In this document: piece after piece, positions 1-6,905 of the stretch
Layout: every line of letters begins with the position of its first letter
Numbering within the stretch: the stretch's first letter is position 1
NCBI GenBank assembly: GCA_030616165.1
Contig: JAUWXV010000115.1
Span: 1-11,360, forward strand
DNA from: a bacterium
Lineage (GTDB): Bacteria; SM23-31; JAUVVT01
Direction of reading: 5' to 3'
Length of the DNA stretch: 11,360 nucleotides
Made by a program: the position numbers and the translations under genes
Notes under the pieces: model-generated
What the model was told of the DNA's origin: nothing
The model's database searches: none
Seen by the model: the letters and a program-made list of their open reading frames with translations, nothing else

Positions 1-1616
1 ATATTTACAGCTAATTCAACCTCTCCAATGCTGAGATTTAATTCTCTTGCAACCTCTGAAATATCTTTATTCTGATTTAATAAACTATTGATTTCTTTAA
101 AATTAATCCTTTTATTTATTTCTTTTTTATTTTCTGGTCTCATATTTAATGAAAGCCTTACCTCTTCAACCTCCATATGAAGCTCTTTTGCTATCTTTAC
201 ATCATCCCATCCAAGATCATTCAACTTGTATACCGCAATATATTTATCTTTAATTGTAAAGAAATTATTATTTAATTTATATTTATTTTTTAGATTCGGC
301 GTTAATTCTTTTAAAGTTAAAATTTTATCAATTTTATTATTTCTATGTAAAATTTCCTCTTCAAGTAGGTCTACTTTTTCATACCTTCTTTTCTTTATAA
401 TATTGCTCTTCTTATTAGTTTTTGAATAGGTATCAACCAGTTTTTCCCGGAATTTATCTTTACTGGAAGTAGGGTAATATTTAGGAATTCTACCAAGTTT
501 TATATCCTTTTCAACAGACTTTTTGAAAACCTTTTCTAAATATTTCGACTCTTTACCTTTCCTTTTTTTATCTCTATTAAATAACTTTCTTGCAAGTAAA
601 AACCCTGCCGTTAATGCAAGAATCCCTCCAGTAGTATAAAAATACCACCAATTGAACAATAAAATTTTACCATCATTTTTTATATTCTCTTCTTCTAAAT
701 TTATCCCGGCATTAAAAAAATTAATTTTCTCTTTGATTGCATTTATTTCTTCTTCTTTATTTGTCTTCAGGGAGTCTATATCTGAAATATTGAACAAATT
801 ATTTTCGATTTGGTAACTATTTGTCTGTTCTTCTTCATCGCTGGGATTTAAATCAAATTTTTCATCAATAACTTCGGCAATTTCAGAAGAAACATAATCT
901 TCTTCACCTTCATCATCTCTATTTGTGGGCTCATCATTTTCGTTCCCGATTTTCTCTGATTCAAGAATCTGGAAAATATAACTAACGGTATTTTTGCCAA
1001 GGGATGAATTTTCCGGAATTTTTCTGAAATTTATTAATGCTTTTTGAGGTTCTCCAATCAGCATCCGAATTATTCCAGCATGAAAATATGATTCTTGATG
1101 ACCTGGTTCAATAGATATTGCTTTTCTGTATTCCTGAAGCGCCTTTTTATATTCACCACTATTTTCATATTTTAATCCGCGCCTGAAATATTCATTCGCC
1201 GATAACTCTTTCAGAACTATTTTAACATCAACTGCAAGTCGTAGAGGATCATTTAATTTAACTATATTGGTTAAAAATTCATTATTTGCCGAAATTACAA
1301 CATCTAACTCATTATTATTTATTTTGTTGAAATTAATTTCTTTCAAAACTATATTATCGAACCTAATACTTTTTGTATTAAAATTGTCGTCAAAAGTTGA
1401 ATTTAAAAACGAAATGACAATCTTTTTTTCAAACCAATCCTCCTTTATTTGGTATTTGAAAGGGGAATCAAAATCAAAAACCAGCCTCATACTTGTTCCG
1501 CGAAAACTATACCTTAAATCAGTAAGTTTACATTCCTGACCATTTAATAAAGAAACTGGAACCATCAAATAAAAAAGAAAAATAAACTTCTTAAATTTTT
1601 GCAATCTTTTTATCAT
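1..1616 (-). CDS. Exported AMIN-like/TPR membrane protein with two cytoplasmic HTH-like repeats (C-terminus cut by window edge)
   Basis: An uninterrupted frame from ATG at 1616 runs off the left edge after 538 complete codons. Order: N-terminal signal sequence (about 1-26, basic start, hydrophobic core, ending LLNGQ); a beta-rich AMIN-like domain (about 29-132, with LTDLRYSFRGTSMRLVFDFD and closing LNDPLRLAVDVK); TPR helices (about 138-220, with YFRRGLKYENSGEYKKALQE and ISIEPGHQESYFHAG); an acidic low-complexity linker (about 223-315); one membrane helix (about 325-343, TTGGILALTAGFLLARK, nucleotides near 644-588); a basic cytoplasmic linker; then two similar helix-turn-helix-like units at about 459-492 (KLNDLGWDDVKIAKELHMEV) and 505-538 (NQNKDISEVARELNLSIGEV). 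The second resembles the C-terminal module of SwrB-type and DUF2802 flagellar proteins. It starts 46 bases after the GAF gene, and its ribosome site is weak. Function unknown; it may link the envelope to flagellar assembly. Confidence 0.88.
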   Translation of the reverse strand, partial: MIKRLQKFKKFIFLFYLMVPVSLLNGQECKLTDLRYSFRGTSMRLVFDFDSPFKYQIKEDWFEKKIVISFLNSTFDDNFNTKSIRFDNIVLKEINFNKINNNELDVVISANNEFLTNIVKLNDPLRLAVDVKIVLKELSANEYFRRGLKYENSGEYKKALQEYRKAISIEPGHQESYFHAGIIRMLIGEPQKALINFRKIPENSSLGKNTVSYIFQILESEKIGNENDEPTNRDDEGEEDYVSSEIAEVIDEKFDLNPSDEEEQTNSYQIENNLFNISDIDSLKTNKEEEINAIKEKINFFNAGINLEEENIKNDGKILLFNWWYFYTTGGILALTAGFLLARKLFNRDKKRKGKESKYLEKVFKKSVEKDIKLGRIPKYYPTSSKDKFREKLVDTYSKTNKKSNIIKKRRYEKVDLLEEEILHRNNKIDKILTLKELTPNLKNKYKLNNNFFTIKDKYIAVYKLNDLGWDDVKIAKELHMEVEEVRLSLNMRPENKKEINKRINFKEINSLLNQNKDISEVARELNLSIGEVELAVN

Positions 1617-1662: not shown

Positions 1663-2439
1663 TTAACCTTTCGAGAAGGAATTTAATTTACTTTTATATT
1701 TTTTAACAATTTTTCCAGAATCTCTTAATTTTTTATTTACCCTTATATTCTCAATAGCAATTGCAGCCTGCTCCGTAAGAAGAGCTAACATCTCAAGGTC
1801 CTGTTTAGTAAATTTATTTTTAGGCTTTTTAGTATAAATCACATATATTCCCAAATCTTCACCAAGGATATATAAAGGAACAAAGACATAATTTCTCTCT
1901 GAGCCATTTTTCGGGTCATTAGAAAGTGTTTCAATATCAGAAACAACAACCGTCCTCCTCTCTTCAATTACCCAATTGATAATTCCCTCTTCCATATAAT
2001 TTTTTACTGCCCTATTGAGCCCTGAATCTTTATTCTTCAAGGTTAGTGATTTATATTCATTCCTTTCTTTATCAAAAAGAAAAATATCGCTTTCTTGTAC
2101 AGGCAAAACCTGTTTGGTTATATTAGTGAGTATTTTTAATATTCCAGATATCCTTTTAGAAAATCTTATAGTTTTAGACAATTTCTGCATATACAAGAGT
2201 TCATCAAAAGAATCTTTCAACTGCCTCTTTTCATCTTTTTTTTCTGAAATCGCTTTCTCTAAATCTTTGATTCTCTTTTCCAAGTTTGTTATCGTCCTCC
2301 GGTAGAGCCTATCAACATTTTTAAAAGATTTTATAATTTCCCTTACTTTATTCCGTTCATTACTATTTAGCATTCCAACAATTTTATTAAAATTATTTAT
2401 CTCTTTTTCTAAAATTTCATTAAAATCACTGGCTAACAT
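1663..2439 (-). CDS. Coiled-coil GAF-domain protein
   Basis: A soluble protein of 258 residues from the ATG at 2439; a TTG two codons earlier (2445) is possible. The first 85 residues or so are heavily charged and helical (EKEINNFNKIVG, NLEKRIKDLEKAISEKKDEK), very likely a dimerising coiled coil. A GAF domain follows at about residues 93-235: the helix ILTNITKQVLPVQESDIFLFD, ..IINWVIEERRTVVVSD, FVPLYILGEDLGIYVIY and the closing DLEMLALLTEQAAIAIENIR. GAF domains bind small ligands or act as dimer sensors. No GGDEF, kinase or ATPase output is attached, so it probably signals through a partner, most simply the HDOD protein, whose gene it overlaps by 14 bases. Neither start has a clear ribosome site, which fits translation coupled to the HDOD stop. 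Confidence 0.88.
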   Translation of the reverse strand: MLASDFNEILEKEINNFNKIVGMLNSNERNKVREIIKSFKNVDRLYRRTITNLEKRIKDLEKAISEKKDEKRQLKDSFDELLYMQKLSKTIRFSKRISGILKILTNITKQVLPVQESDIFLFDKERNEYKSLTLKNKDSGLNRAVKNYMEEGIINWVIEERRTVVVSDIETLSNDPKNGSERNYVFVPLYILGEDLGIYVIYTKKPKNKFTKQDLEMLALLTEQAAIAIENIRVNKKLRDSGKIVKKYKSKLNSFSKG

Positions 2440-3391
2440 GAGCAATTTTTTTATTTTTTATTTCTTTATCTTCTGATTCTAAAATTTCTTTTCCTTGAAT
2501 CAGATTAATGAATGTTTCTGCTTTTGTAAGCTCTTCTCTTAATTCAAAAATATAATAATCTAAATTAACGCTGCCATCCTTATTTCTTTTTAATTTTAAA
2601 CTATCAGCCACATCCGTATCAAATTTAGGTATTCCATTATCTCCAGAATTTCCGATTTTTGCAACTCTGGTAAGATAATTTGAAAAATGAACAATAGCAG
2701 ACTGCAGATAATCTTTCTCCGAATCTTTAGGATTATGATGATAAGCAATTAAATCAACAAGACGTTTGGGAAGATTCCACCTATCGGCAAGCCAGCTTCC
2801 TATCATCGCATGACTTATGCCGATTACTTTTTCTTCCGCCTCTATAAACAGCAAATTCTCATTTTTGACAGTCTCAATTATTTTTTTAAATTCAGGTTTT
2901 ATATACTGCTTAAGAACTAATTTCCCAATGTCGTGCAGAAGCCCTCCAACAAATACCTCCCCACTTATCATATATCCGCGGTCTCTTGCAATCATCCTTG
3001 CTGCAACTCCGCACGTTATCGAATGTTCCCAGAACCTGCTCATATCAAAATTGCTGTCTATATCCTTATCTGAAAACCATTCCCTCATCGAAGCACTTAT
3101 ACACAAATTTTTCAATGTATCAAAACCAAGCACCACAAGGGCAAGAGTTACAGTTGAAATCCTCCTTGGAAAACCGTAAAAAGATGAGTTTGCAAGTTTA
3201 AGAATCCTCGCAGTTAATACTTGGTCAGTAGATATAAGTTTTCCTAAGCTCTTGGCATTGGTCTTTGGATTGTCTATCATCTCTATTAATTTCGCAATTA
3301 ATGTCGGAAGAGGAGGAAGACTCAAAACTCTCTGTGCTATTCTCTTTATCCATTCTTTATTTCCAGAATGATTCAATTTTTTCTCCTGCAT
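2426..3391 (-). CDS. HDOD-domain signalling protein
   Basis: A 321-residue soluble protein with one HDOD domain, a relative of HD phosphohydrolases found in bacterial signalling. The domain spans about residues 15-245: the entry ..RVLSLPPLPTLIAKLIEMID, then SLGKLISTDQVLTARILKLANSSFYGFPRRISTV split over 48-81, FWEHS (120-124), GLLHDIGKL (150-158), GISHAMIGSWLADRWNLP (191-208) and AYHHNP (216-221). Histidines at 123, 153, 194 and 218/219 and Asp154 are kept. The last metal-ligand position, usually Asp in active HD enzymes, reads Asn in VHFSNYL, so catalysis is doubtful, as for HDOD proteins generally. Residues 250-321 form a charged helical tail with no recognised output domain. The start may be the TTG at 3376 rather than the ATG. 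The 3' end overlaps the GAF gene. A role in motility control is inferred from position only. Confidence 0.9.
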   Translation of the reverse strand: MQEKKLNHSGNKEWIKRIAQRVLSLPPLPTLIAKLIEMIDNPKTNAKSLGKLISTDQVLTARILKLANSSFYGFPRRISTVTLALVVLGFDTLKNLCISASMREWFSDKDIDSNFDMSRFWEHSITCGVAARMIARDRGYMISGEVFVGGLLHDIGKLVLKQYIKPEFKKIIETVKNENLLFIEAEEKVIGISHAMIGSWLADRWNLPKRLVDLIAYHHNPKDSEKDYLQSAIVHFSNYLTRVAKIGNSGDNGIPKFDTDVADSLKLKRNKDGSVNLDYYIFELREELTKAETFINLIQGKEILESEDKEIKNKKIAHVSQ

Positions 3392-3741
3392 TTATTCTGC
3401 CGATAATTCATCAAATAACAATATCTATCTTTTTTTCCACGATGGGATTCTTTTCTTTGTAATTTTTTTTGTTCTTCCTTTTTCTCTTCTTCTTCTTTCT
3501 CTTTTTTCTTTCTTTCTTTTTTAGAAAGGTTTAATTGTCTTTCTTTTTCTTTTTCAATTTGTATTCTTGCTTCTCTGGTTTGTGGAGTAGCCTGCGCTTC
3601 TTTCAATTTTTGGTCTTCTGCCTGCTGAACAATTGATGTATACTGCCTCTGTTCAGATTCCGGCTGTTGTGGTCTCGTCTGGTGTGCTCTTTCCACACCA
3701 GGAGTCTGAGCAATTATATTCTGAAAATCAACAGCCCTCAT
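3373..3741 (-). CDS. Charged coiled-coil protein of flagellar operon; probable frameshift near 3' end
   Basis: As read, 122 residues. It begins MRAVDFQNIIAQTPGVERAHQ, continues through a Gln-rich segment (about 20-50) and then a Lys/Glu-rich segment (about 60-98) likely to be helical or coiled coil. No signal peptide or membrane segment is seen, so it should be cytoplasmic. From memory, short proteins of this pattern (Q-rich start, charged middle, an IDI-type C-terminus) occur in flagellar operons of several phyla without known function. The last 19 residues as read, including RYCYLMNYRQNKC, look like out-of-frame sequence. If one A is removed from the A7 run at 3436-3430 the product ends GKKIDIVI at a TGA (3413-3411), giving about 109 residues and leaving a normal gap before the HDOD gene. 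AAGGAATT precedes the ATG. I am sure it is a gene, not of its function. Confidence 0.75.
   Translation of the reverse strand: MRAVDFQNIIAQTPGVERAHQTRPQQPESEQRQYTSIVQQAEDQKLKEAQATPQTREARIQIEKEKERQLNLSKKERKKKEKEEEEKKEEQKKLQRKESHRGKKDRYCYLMNYRQNKCRRKN
3374..3387 (-). promoter_or_regulatory. Ribosome binding site suggesting a TTG start for the HDOD gene
   Basis: Minus-strand AGGAG (3387-3383) is followed after six A residues by TTG (3376-3374). It lies inside the first codons of the ATG-started frame (ATG at 3391), which itself has no ribosome site. A TTG start would shorten the product by five residues (MQEKK). The TTG overlaps the TGA that ends the unshifted reading of the upstream gene. Confidence 0.5.
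3411..3436 (-). other. A7 homopolymer with likely frameshift; alternative gene end
   Basis: The minus strand reads GGA followed by AAA AAA GAT. Skipping one A gives GGA AAA AAG ATA GAT ATT GTT ATT TGA, translated GKKIDIVI and a stop at 3413-3411. Frame as sequenced runs on for 12 more codons past this stop, to TGA at 3375-3373. A shift in the other direction meets TAG at once, so only one frame gives a sensible terminus. Assembly error, true mutation, or slippage during transcription are all possible. Confidence 0.6.
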
Positions 3742-3760: not shown

Positions 3761-4522
3761 TTATGCTTTTATAGCTTCCCGCAACTTCCCTTTTAAACTC
3801 AGTATAGTTTTAGTATGAATCTGCGAGATGCGAGATTCTGAAAGCTGCAAAACTTGTCCTATTTCATGAAGAGTCAACTCTTCATAATAATATAATGCTA
3901 TAACCAGTCTTTCAACCTCCGGAAGATTATCTATTGCTTTAATCATTATCTCTTTTAGTTCTCCTCTATTTATCTCTTCCATCGGATTTTCAGCCTTTTT
4001 ATCCTCTATGACCTCATGCAGACTGGCTTTCCCCCCATCTCCATTAAATATTGTCTCGTCCAACGACAAAAGGCTTGAGGTACCAATCTCTTTAAGTAGT
4101 TCAAAATATTCTTCCAGCGAAATATTAAGACTTTTTGAGATTTCTTCATCTGTCACAGGTCCTCCCTTTTTGCTTTCAAGTTTATAAATAGCCCTTTCAA
4201 GTTCTCTTGCTTTACTTCGCACAGAGCGAGGAACCCAATCCAATTTCCTTAATTCATCAAGAATCGCCCCTTTTATTCTGGGAATCGCATAACTTTCAAA
4301 CTTTACACCATATTGGGGATCATATCGGTCAATTGCATCAATTAATCCCATTATCCCACTACTTTCAAGATCATCCAGTTCTACCGAAGGCGGAAGAGAT
4401 ATCATCATCCGACCAGCCACATATTTTACCAATGATATATATTTGACTATCAGCTGTTCCTTGGTCTTTGTCTCCCTCTTCTTTTCATATTTCTCCCATA
4501 ATGGATCTTGTTGAAAACTCAT
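3761..4522 (-). CDS. fliA: FliA/SigD, flagellar sigma-28 RNA polymerase sigma factor
   Basis: Alternative sigma factor that directs RNA polymerase to late flagellar promoters (filament, motor, chemotaxis). At 253 residues it has the usual FliA/SigD/WhiG length. Region 2 spans about residues 23-100, with LVKYVAGRM, DDLESSGIMGLIDAIDRYDP and FESYAIPRIKGAILDELRKLDWVPRSVR, all diagnostic of this group rather than of sigma-70. Region 3 is about 104-150. Region 4 is about 188-250, with LPEVERLVIALYYYEELTLHEIG and a DNA-binding helix-turn-helix ending LSESRISQIHTKTI. AAGGAAGG lies about eight bases before the ATG. No anti-sigma FlgM gene is visible here. The gene follows the small membrane protein and precedes the charged protein by 19 bases, as part of the same unit. 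sigD is the name used in Bacillus. Confidence 0.95.
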   Translation of the reverse strand: MSFQQDPLWEKYEKKRETKTKEQLIVKYISLVKYVAGRMMISLPPSVELDDLESSGIMGLIDAIDRYDPQYGVKFESYAIPRIKGAILDELRKLDWVPRSVRSKARELERAIYKLESKKGGPVTDEEISKSLNISLEEYFELLKEIGTSSLLSLDETIFNGDGGKASLHEVIEDKKAENPMEEINRGELKEIMIKAIDNLPEVERLVIALYYYEELTLHEIGQVLQLSESRISQIHTKTILSLKGKLREAIKA

Positions 4523-4593: not shown

Positions 4594-4833
4594 TTACTCT
4601 TCGGAGATTCCGCTCTCTTCTACCAATTCCTCTTCTTCCTCTACAATTTCTCTTCTTATTTTTTCAGTCATTTTTATAAATGAAACAGCAATCAATACAA
4701 GCAGTGTCTCTACTGCAATAAATGCGACAAACGAACGAAATATCAATGTTGCAGTCGGGATATTTCTCCATACACCTGCTATAAACAATACTGAAAAAAT
4801 TAAAAGACCCAATTTAAGAATTAATGCCTTCAT
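4594..4833 (-). CDS. Small two-helix inner-membrane protein with acidic tail, function unknown
   Basis: A 79-residue protein that I do not recognise as a named family. It has two predicted membrane helices, about residues 2-21 (ALILKLGLLIFSVLFIAGVW) and 31-53 (IFRSFVAFIAVETLLVLIAV), joined by a short turn with WRNIPTAT. A cytoplasmic tail follows: a basic start (KMTEKIRRE) and then a Glu-rich end (VEEEEELVEESGISEE). Positive residues lie at the extreme N-terminus and just after helix 2, so both ends are probably cytoplasmic. It lies 24 bases after flhG and 71 before fliA. No clear ribosome site precedes the ATG, and an in-frame stop three codons upstream rules out a longer form. Base composition resembles its neighbours. 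The operon position suggests an accessory role in basal-body assembly or sigma-factor control, but that is inference. Confidence 0.8.
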   Translation of the reverse strand: MKALILKLGLLIFSVLFIAGVWRNIPTATLIFRSFVAFIAVETLLVLIAVSFIKMTEKIRREIVEEEEELVEESGISEE

Positions 4834-4857: not shown

Positions 4858-5760
4858 TTAAGTAACAGTCTTCATATGAGAATTGAAAATTCTATCGAAA
4901 AATGATATCTTTTTTAATGAAACTTCTTTACTATTATAATCCAAAATAATTCTTTTCGCTATATTTCTAACACAAATCGAAGCAATTGACCTTGGATATT
5001 CAAGAACAAAGGGATTCTGTCTTCTGACCGCATTAATAACATTCTTATCGAAAAATACAGCACCCAAAATATTTATTTTAATATCAAGAAATTTATCCGC
5101 TGCATATTTTAACTTATTAATCGCATCTCTTCCTTCCTTCACAGACTTTATTTGATTTGCAATAATATTAACCTTTACATCATTTCCTTTTGCTGTGGAA
5201 ATCTTTATAAGGGCATAGGCATCCATAATTGATGTAGGTTCAGGTGAAACCAAAACTATCATTTCGTTCGCATTCGCAACGAAGTCAACTACATACTCAG
5301 CAATGCCAGCAGCAGTATCTATAAGAATCATATCATATTCTTCTTCAAGGGCTGCAAATTCTTTAATAAGCCGATTCTTAACTGAATTTTCAATCCCTAT
5401 AAAATCAAAAATGCCCGAAGGTGAAGGAAGTAAATATATTCCTTGAGGACCTTTAATAATAACTTCGCTTAATCTTTTATCCCCAGTTATAAAATCCTTT
5501 ATAGTATGGACAGGAGAAATCCCCATCAATACATCAAGATTTGCAAGGTTTAAATCTCCATCTATCAGAAGAACCCTTTTCTTAAACACAGATAAAGAAA
5601 TTGCGAGATTAAGGGCAAAATTTGTCTTTCCTACACCACCTTTTCCACTTGTTATTGCCAAAATCCTCGCATGACTTTTTTGGATATCATCCACAATATT
5701 TAATCTTCTCCCCACTTTCTCTTTTATCTCTCTAAGTCTTGATGCCTGGTCTTTTTTCAC
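4858..5760 (-). CDS. flhG: FlhG (YlxH/FleN/MinD2), ATPase controlling flagellar number
   Basis: MinD/ParA-type ATPase that partners FlhF to limit flagellar number and position. At 300 residues it has family length. The N-terminus has the DQAxxLR motif (DQASRLR, residues 4-10), known in this family as the helix that stimulates FlhF GTPase activity. The deviant Walker A is GKGGVGKTN (39-47). LLIDGDLNLANLD (64-76) is the ParA-type aspartate segment, and MILIDTAAGI (144-153) is the Walker B/switch II region. The C-terminus contains a basic-hydrophobic stretch, LKKISFFDRIF, which may be the membrane-binding amphipathic helix. The start is GTG at 5760, and GTGA overlaps the flhF TGA stop. AAGGAG lies nine bases upstream of the GTG, supporting this start. 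The name ylxH/minD is also used. Confidence 0.94.
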   Translation of the reverse strand: MKKDQASRLREIKEKVGRRLNIVDDIQKSHARILAITSGKGGVGKTNFALNLAISLSVFKKRVLLIDGDLNLANLDVLMGISPVHTIKDFITGDKRLSEVIIKGPQGIYLLPSPSGIFDFIGIENSVKNRLIKEFAALEEEYDMILIDTAAGIAEYVVDFVANANEMIVLVSPEPTSIMDAYALIKISTAKGNDVKVNIIANQIKSVKEGRDAINKLKYAADKFLDIKINILGAVFFDKNVINAVRRQNPFVLEYPRSIASICVRNIAKRIILDYNSKEVSLKKISFFDRIFNSHMKTVT

Positions 5761-5775
5761 AGGAAATTTCTCCTT
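5757..5775 (-). promoter_or_regulatory. flhF/flhG coupling junction: ribosome site plus overlapping stop and GTG start
   Basis: Minus-strand AAGGAG (5775-5770) sits inside the last flhF codons, nine bases before GTG, which shares GTGA with the flhF TGA. This is the classical layout for coupled translation. It matters because FlhG counteracts FlhF, so their ratio affects flagellar number. Confidence 0.7.
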
Positions 5776-6905
5776 AGTATAATCTTTGCAATTTTTCTGG
5801 AATCTGCCTTTTCAATATCTTCTGGAACATTTTGTCCGAATGTAATATATGAAATTGGTTTTCTTACCTTTTCTGCTACATTCAAAATTAATCCAAGACT
5901 TGTTGTCTCATCAAGTTTAGTAAAAATAATCCTATTAATAAAAAGCGTCTTAAACTTCTCTAATATATCAAGAATATCTTTGTACTTTGTTGTAACACTC
6001 AAAACCAAATACACCTCCCCTGGTTCAACAGATGAAAGCATATTTCCAATCTCTTTTAGATTCTTTTTATCTTTTTGACTTCTTCCAGTTGTATCAATAA
6101 AAATCAAATCCATTCTGCTGAATTTAGCGACAGCATTCTTTATTTCATCCATAGAATAAACCACTTCGAATGGGATTTCAGCTATATTTGCAAATGTTTT
6201 TAACTGTTCCACTGCTGCAATTCTGAATGTATCAGCAGATATTATCGCAACTTCTTTCCCATCGATCAACTTAGCCTGTGTAGCAAGTTTTGCAATGGTT
6301 GTAGTTTTTCCCACACCTGTTGGTCCCACAAAGGCGATGATTCTTGCAGTCGAATTTATCTTACTGTTTTGGGGGGTTGTTTTTACCATAGCCGAGATTT
6401 TGCCAATAAGTTTCCTAAGGATGAGCCTCAAATCATCATATTCCTCACCTTTTAAACTCATATGAACTTCTTGAATAAGCCTTTTTGCAAGTATCTCCTC
6501 AACCTCACAGTCTAACAACTGCTTTAAAACAAGAAGAAGATTTTCTGGAAGACTGGGCAGATTTCTGTATCTTAGAAAGTCAGCAATTTTTGCTACAGTG
6601 ATTCGGATTTCACCAAGTTCTTCCTTTATAAGTTCGATTTCTTGCAATTTCAGATTATCATCACTGTTAAACTTTATATCTTCAGTCTTATTTCTCGAAA
6701 ATTTTTGCTCCGTATTCTTTTTATTTGGGTCTCTATAATTATCTAACGCAGCAAGTATCTCCATTCTTTCCTTTTTGGAAAAATCGAAAATCCCATCCTT
6801 TTTTACCTTCCTTGATTCAAGAATAATTGCATCACTTCCAAGTTCCTTCTTCATTTGACCCACTGCTTCCTTCAGTGTTGGGGCTGAAAATCTTTTAATC
6901 CTCAT
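5757..6905 (-). CDS. flhF: FlhF, SRP-family GTPase controlling flagellar placement
   Basis: GTPase of the signal-recognition-particle family that sets where, and in polar flagellates whether, the flagellum is built. The 382 residues comprise a B domain starting MRIKRFSAPTLKEAVGQMK, a charged linker (about 58-90), a helical N domain (about 90-180) and the NG GTPase domain. GTPase motifs are all present: P-loop GPTGVGKTTT (194-203), DTFRIAAVEQL (225-235), DTTGRSQKD (271-279), TKLDET (329-334) and the closing GQNVPEDIE (357-365). A Shine-Dalgarno-like GGGAGGGA lies rather far (about 13 bases) before the ATG, but the product begins as FlhF proteins normally do. It overlaps flhA by 11 bases at its start and flhG by 4 at its end, which fits balanced production with its partner FlhG. 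Confidence 0.95.
   Translation of the reverse strand: MRIKRFSAPTLKEAVGQMKKELGSDAIILESRKVKKDGIFDFSKKERMEILAALDNYRDPNKKNTEQKFSRNKTEDIKFNSDDNLKLQEIELIKEELGEIRITVAKIADFLRYRNLPSLPENLLLVLKQLLDCEVEEILAKRLIQEVHMSLKGEEYDDLRLILRKLIGKISAMVKTTPQNSKINSTARIIAFVGPTGVGKTTTIAKLATQAKLIDGKEVAIISADTFRIAAVEQLKTFANIAEIPFEVVYSMDEIKNAVAKFSRMDLIFIDTTGRSQKDKKNLKEIGNMLSSVEPGEVYLVLSVTTKYKDILDILEKFKTLFINRIIFTKLDETTSLGLILNVAEKVRKPISYITFGQNVPEDIEKADSRKIAKIILRRNFL

Follow-up and report, generated by a model that had tools for sequence, protein, structure and literature searches.

The window, a stretch of 11,360 nucleotides that makes up all of contig C27 in an incomplete genome (G000; 343 contigs), ends a flagellar operon with a gene for a protein that joins a periplasmic AMIN domain and TPRs, through a single transmembrane helix (TM), to two cytoplasmic HTH modules. 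The double HTH is best read, from its relatives, as the DUF6115/DUF2802 module of SwrB/FipA-type proteins. Judging from sequence, there is an even chance that the whole is a wall-anchored, FipA/SwrB-type single-pass inner-membrane factor for flagellar assembly or placement that recruits FlhF. How might such a protein work? The AMIN domain would anchor it to peptidoglycan or else to some part of the basal body in the periplasm, while the TPRs would bind a periplasmic partner. The SwrB/FipA-type module or modules would recruit or activate the FlhF encoded in the same operon, and FlhF would thereby bring the early basal body or the export gate to that site. By analogy, we lean slightly toward peptidoglycan binding by the window protein; binding of FlhF, also argued by analogy, may or may not occur, with the balance about level. 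Placement could be the role or not in roughly equal measure, and export-gate activation is a more doubtful role.

The gene (ORF 3-1616, minus strand, from an ORF reading of the whole window) is open for 538 codons, with its 3′ end off the contig. A 54% identical relative in genome G001 continues for about 14 residues past the point where the window protein stops, so very little of it is missing. The gene is present in 6/6 genomes of its phylum that were examined and is therefore not a chance ORF. An earlier note, made from the letters of this DNA, had described a 538-codon frame with a signal peptide, an AMIN-like domain, TPR, an acidic linker, one TM, and two HTH-like repeats, and Pfam, a structural model, and the charges bear out all of these parts (Table 1). 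The charge pattern around the TM (-20/+18) indicates that the N-terminal part is extracytoplasmic and the C-terminal part cytoplasmic, the topology that the note had claimed. The periplasmic part comprises some 290 residues, with the AMIN domain and about two to three TPRs; the latter match Pfam TPR_2 at 35.6 bits (cut-off, 27).

Table 1. Features of the window protein and of its neighbors
Feature	Position	Strand	Basis
Full protein: signal peptide-AMIN-TPR-TM-double module	3..1616	-	538 codons; orthologs
Signal peptide, residues 1-27	1536..1616	-	Predicted from sequence: net +5, then hydrophobic core
AMIN domain, residues 28-134	1215..1535	-	Ortholog over Pfam cut-off; structure match 4aqz/4bin; profile matches
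TPR repeats, residues 138-226	939..1205	-	Pfam; high pLDDT; VIA-align Z 14.6-12.6 to TPR folds
Periplasmic linker, acidic and largely disordered, residues 227-320, net -20	657..938	-	Model, sequence
Single transmembrane helix, residues 321-345	582..656	-	Sequence; flanking charges -20/+18
Cytoplasmic stretch, basic and largely disordered, residues 346-453, net +18	258..581	-	Model, sequence
HTH1, residues 454-492: SwrB/FipA-type module with G469, E485, L488	141..257	-	Module profile, alignment
HTH2, residues 504-538: N516 replaces G, E532, L535; end possibly cut	3..107	-	Module profile
GAF-domain protein, cassette partner	1663..2445	-	Pfam; synteny
HDOD protein, cassette partner	2426..3391	-	Pfam; synteny
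Small charged protein, pairs with module protein across phyla	3373..3741	-	Relatives found by sequence search
fliA (sigma-28)	3761..4522	-	Pfam
flhF, proposed partner	5757..6905	-	TIGR03499 208.8 bits, over cut-off

The AMIN relation is established through an ortholog and a fold match; in the window protein itself, Pfam gives no AMIN match at E<=1. Ortholog P0003 scores 24.5 bits against AMIN (PF11741), above the cut-off of 20.5, and P0005 and P0002 come near it with 18.9 and 15.8 bits. An AlphaFold model, built from three sequences and of good confidence at the domain level only, has beta strands at residues 27-133 (pLDDT mostly 65-80), and its pLDDT is about 80-93 in the TPRs, 72-77 in HTH1, and 65-87 in HTH2. 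Foldseek ranks the PilQ-B2 AMIN domain 4aqz (E 1.7e-5) and AmiC 4bin (E 2.2e-4) second and third for this model. AMIN domains of PilQ bind peptidoglycan and localize PilQ (PMC5285504). Other searches mostly returned the TPRs: VIA-align with the model listed only TPR folds, which is uninformative on AMIN and HTH, and a PDB sequence search with a profile of the family protein found mainly TPR proteins. The same search with the module profile gave designed HTH repeats and generic HTHs. NCBIfam on the window family yielded weak TPR matches and a weak SpiroCoCo C-terminal match to the module, and the double HTH folded alone reached a mean pLDDT of 55.8, a low confidence. The AMIN, TPR, and HTH relations for which the note had proposed Pfam and structure checks were all found, directly or through relatives.

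Could the AMIN-TPR part instead be a spoke of the PflA/MotK kind, building or anchoring the motor, with the cytoplasmic modules merely a tether? The best PDB match of the model by Foldseek is 9hmf chain K (773 residues, E 1.5e-5), which we take to be mature PflA. The entry is that of the Campylobacter jejuni periplasmic scaffold (PMC12222027), and MotK, too, has the order signal peptide-AMIN-TPR. We nevertheless think a motor scaffold unlikely: the rmsd is 20 over the whole 9hmf match, PflA is predicted to have 16 TPRs where the window protein has two or three followed by a TM and cytoplasmic modules, and the gene sits among flhF, flhG, fliA, and regulators, away from mot genes. PflA and MotK share the signal peptide, AMIN, and TPR with the window protein but are periplasmic, with many more TPRs and no cytoplasmic module. 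Membership in their group was rejected given the TM at residues 321-345, the cytoplasmic half, and the low number of TPRs.

Two other kinds of protein invite comparison with the proposed wall-anchored FlhF recruiter. HubP/FimV resembles it in having a wall-binding arm, a TM, an acidic stretch, and TPR, and the trait to compare is polar placement of FlhF; by description, however, HubP/FimV carries LysM instead of AMIN, and its TPR and acidic part are cytoplasmic. To our knowledge, HubP/FimV has no SwrB/FipA module. FliO with an AMIN or LysM arm (in Campylobacterota, Myxococcota, and others) likewise combines a periplasmic wall-binding arm, one TM, a small cytoplasmic domain, and a flagellar role, but its cytoplasmic part is a beta-sheet core rather than HTH. 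Both arms have been reported for FliO, whose AMIN arm has an effect on flagellation in C. jejuni (PMC12403147), so a wall arm on a flagellar membrane protein has a close precedent. Pfam finds no FliO (PF04347) match in the window protein, and its identity as a FliO with an AMIN arm was rejected on account of a separate FliO in the phylum (L037, PF04347 59 bits).

The cytoplasmic half leads to the SwrB and FipA proteins. We built an HMM from ten modules of the window family and ran it on 80 FlhA loci of named genomes; all 17 matches (E<1e-3; 9,581 ORFs) are encoded at -93 to +2,617 bases relative to the fliA end. Apart from those in L056 and L057, the matched proteins are short, mostly with one predicted TM, and come from Firmicutes and deltaproteobacterial-type genomes. 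Compared profile to profile, the modules of long and short proteins match with a probability of 99.4% (E 1.4e-21), the two sets having been gathered with a family-seeded profile. DUF6115, an independently built Pfam model, matches 14 of 17 family members, several of them above cut-off (among relatives, L056, L057, L192, and L200). DUF2802 matches 5 of 17 relatives, all below cut-off among those viewed individually, and the short module proteins tested match DUF6115 and mostly DUF2802 too. The two families had been named in the note as candidates, and this stands for the relatives; the window protein itself reaches 15.6 bits with DUF6115 (cut-off, 27) and has no Pfam match to DUF2802 at E<=1. 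Its own genome holds no second copy of the module at E<=1e-4.

Residue by residue, the module can be compared with FipA, whose DUF2802 domain binds FlhF and has three fully conserved residues, two of which (G and L) are needed for that binding (PMC11620751). The spacings of FipA G110, E126, and L129 (16 and 3) equal those of module columns 12, 28, and 31, where G is conserved in 48/59, E in 63/63, and L in 53/62. HTH1 of the window protein keeps this G-x15-E-x2-L pattern with G469, E485, and L488, while HTH2 (N516) and both modules of the G005 ortholog are without the G. At this FlhF-binding position, 33 of 34 short proteins have G versus 13 of 23 modules from long proteins, 7 of which have N. 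These losses count against the proposed FlhF recruiter. Since G and N are both favored at helix C-caps, N in place of G may keep the module fold.

The likeness to FipA, a gammaproteobacterial DUF2802 protein, extends to the single TM, the cytoplasmic C-terminal position of the module, and the gene order: fipA lies just downstream of flhA-flhF-flhG-fliA (PMC11620751), as does the module gene in the window. FipA, however, has 5 periplasmic residues versus about 290 with AMIN and TPR, and one module (a single DUF2802 repeat) versus two, the second without the G. The note had spoken of DNA- or protein-binding modules. Small cytoplasmic modules they are, but a generic DNA-binding HTH was rejected as their identity, the closest relatives being SwrB/FipA modules. 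Might the protein still be a membrane-bound transcription regulator, its two HTHs gripping DNA while the periplasmic part senses the wall? Generic profiles (HTH_7, HTH_23, GerE, sigma r4) do match the relatives' modules, mostly weakly, and two HTHs could grip DNA; yet the nearest module with a demonstrated partner, that of FipA, binds the protein FlhF, and relatives with a single module are common. Net charge of the module, set against sigma region 4, did not discriminate DNA binding. We regard such a regulator as very improbable.

SwrB/DUF6115 proteins of Bacillus and relatives have the module at the C terminus, like the window protein, and their gene follows fliA/sigD beside the same small charged protein; they differ in being about 160-200 residues long, with the TM at the N terminus and no wall domain. 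The window protein is set apart as a member of neither the FipA nor the SwrB group. The module gene of Bacillus sp. PS06, Rossellomorea, and Psychrobacillus is flanked by sigD and a ribosomal protein S2 (rpsB)-like gene, which is the place of swrB in B. subtilis. This occupation of the swrB slot by Bacillus-type module proteins favors a further reading, in which the modules act on FliP or rotor conformation to permit hook export, the AMIN-TPR arm relaying the wall or basal-body signal that gates it. SwrB itself works at a basal-body checkpoint via FliP (PMC4526659). Weighing against this reading, which we rate as improbable, are the conserved module residues, which are those that bind FlhF in FipA, and the way the module tracks FlhF (below); it may, moreover, be no separate mechanism from FlhF recruitment. 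It comes nearest to the checkpoint reporting wall or basal-body state that the note had proposed, an idea compatible with SwrB action, although a wall-anchored recruiter of FlhF is at least as good a fit. FlhF recruitment, export-gate activation, and periplasmic scaffolding are not mutually exclusive.

Does the module travel with FlhF? Of 386 genomes searched, 55 have the module, 98 have FlhF (over cut-off), and 168 have FlhA (E<=1e-120), some FlhA matches possibly being injectisome proteins. FlhF is present in 44 of the 55 genomes with the module versus 54 of the 331 without. Among FlhA-positive genomes, the strict FlhF cut-off gives 44/50 with the module versus 51/118 without (P = 3e-8, uncorrected for relatedness); when FlhF hits of about 130-170 bits are also accepted, the figures are 48/50 versus 64/118 (Fisher P about 2e-8, likewise uncorrected). 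Two genomes of one family, G145 and G282, keep the module protein without FlhA or FlhF, that of G145 with an AMIN-like arm. This suggests that the protein there outlives the flagellum as a relic or has another, nonflagellar use. As a flagellum-less family retains a similar protein, the role need not be strictly flagellar. The G145 protein (L194:5252-6298; AMIN-like-TM-module) is encoded beside comEC- and mutS-like genes in a genome that is 99% complete.

The flagellar association suggested in the note is confirmed by the fliA/flhF/flhG operon and by recurrence beside fliA elsewhere. The order fliA-small protein-HDOD-GAF-module protein is kept in G002, G003, and G005 within the limits of their contigs, and appears outside the phylum in KSB1 bacterium 4484_219 (L056), Modern_marine.mb.49 (L057), and G219 and G078 (L196 and L197, whose proteins likewise carry two modules). 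G195 (L190) also has this order, but its gene at the GAF place does not match the window's GAF protein; the GAF proteins in L056 and L057 bear histidine-kinase domains. With fewer cassette neighbors, the architecture is found in G299, G160, G226, and the G056/G198/G329 family. The survey beside fliA that the note had proposed turned up the architecture in several GTDB families besides the window's own; the 80 loci of named genomes were gathered through FlhA, the family protein being too divergent for a pattern scan. Profile comparisons support the AMIN(-TPR) relation in L057, L185, and L194, and the L190 match lies mainly over the TPRs. Counting against the proposed flagellar factor, the G004 copy has no flagellar surroundings in its contig.

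The same module also occurs with other arms. One protein (L146:1483-2835, G023) unites a LysM domain (44.4 bits), a TM, and the module; proline-rich arms are found in L145 and L199; and a 1,714-residue coiled-coil protein (L193:6281-11422, G308) has the module at its C terminus. The NCBIfam SpiroCoCo match suggests, on sequence grounds, that the spirochete protein may belong to this set. A 1,041-residue AMIN-type protein encoded after fliA in G226 (L204:323-3445) contains more than one module. That the inner module stays the same while the outer arms are exchanged, and that two of these arms are of wall-binding types, speaks for wall contact as part of what the proteins do in these lineages. 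Tentatively, SwrB, FipA, DUF6115, and DUF2802 might form one ancient superfamily of membrane receptors for FlhF placement, members of which, in several deep-branching lineages, read the wall with an arm of their own (AMIN-TPR, LysM, or proline-rich) and sometimes have serial modules. Were this true, flagellum placement would be read directly off the wall, with no separate HubP-like polar landmark in between.

What would this mean? One polypeptide could bind both the wall, on the outer side, and the FlhF system, on the inner side, which suggests a physical tie, in some bacteria, between the wall and where or when the flagellum is built. It bears on how FlhF finds its place without a known HubP-type landmark and on how SwrB acts. 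The family also suggests that SwrB (Bacillus) and FipA (Vibrio and Pseudomonas), studied separately, share a module, so that what is learned about either protein can be tested in its counterpart. The parts are known singly, AMIN arms having been described in FliO, PflA, and MotK; what appears to be new is how they are combined (AMIN-TPR-TM-module), how widely the combination occurs, and the module link between SwrB and FipA. In the open-access literature searched, with subscription papers mostly outside it, we found no description of the architecture, in agreement with the note, which knew of none. Neither SpiroCoCo nor DUF6115 occurs in that literature, and the names SwrB and FipA were found together in a single paper, whose main text is silent on SwrB.

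Several smaller observations concern the neighborhood. The small charged protein, whose gene is separated from the module gene in the window by the HDOD and GAF genes, has a DFQ-type N-terminal motif, and its relatives end in IDI-type residues. In Deltaproteobacteria and Firmicutes, its gene is kept after fliA, just upstream of a SwrB/FipA-type gene (L088, L118, L071, L117, L080, and L099), and relatives outside close lineages match with E down to 7.8e-15. Between flhG and fliA (4594-4833, minus strand), the window encodes a 79-residue protein with hydrophobic segments and no Pfam match; akin small ORFs occupy the same place in L057 and L060. The gene after that of the module protein looks FliK-like by eye in L057 (15423-16445; no Pfam match) and L056 (9774-10064), a position that is off the contig in the window. 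FliM carries an N-terminal SQxEIDALL motif that binds FlhG and CheY; the L204 protein has six 26-residue repeats holding QSNIDALF, reminiscent of that motif.
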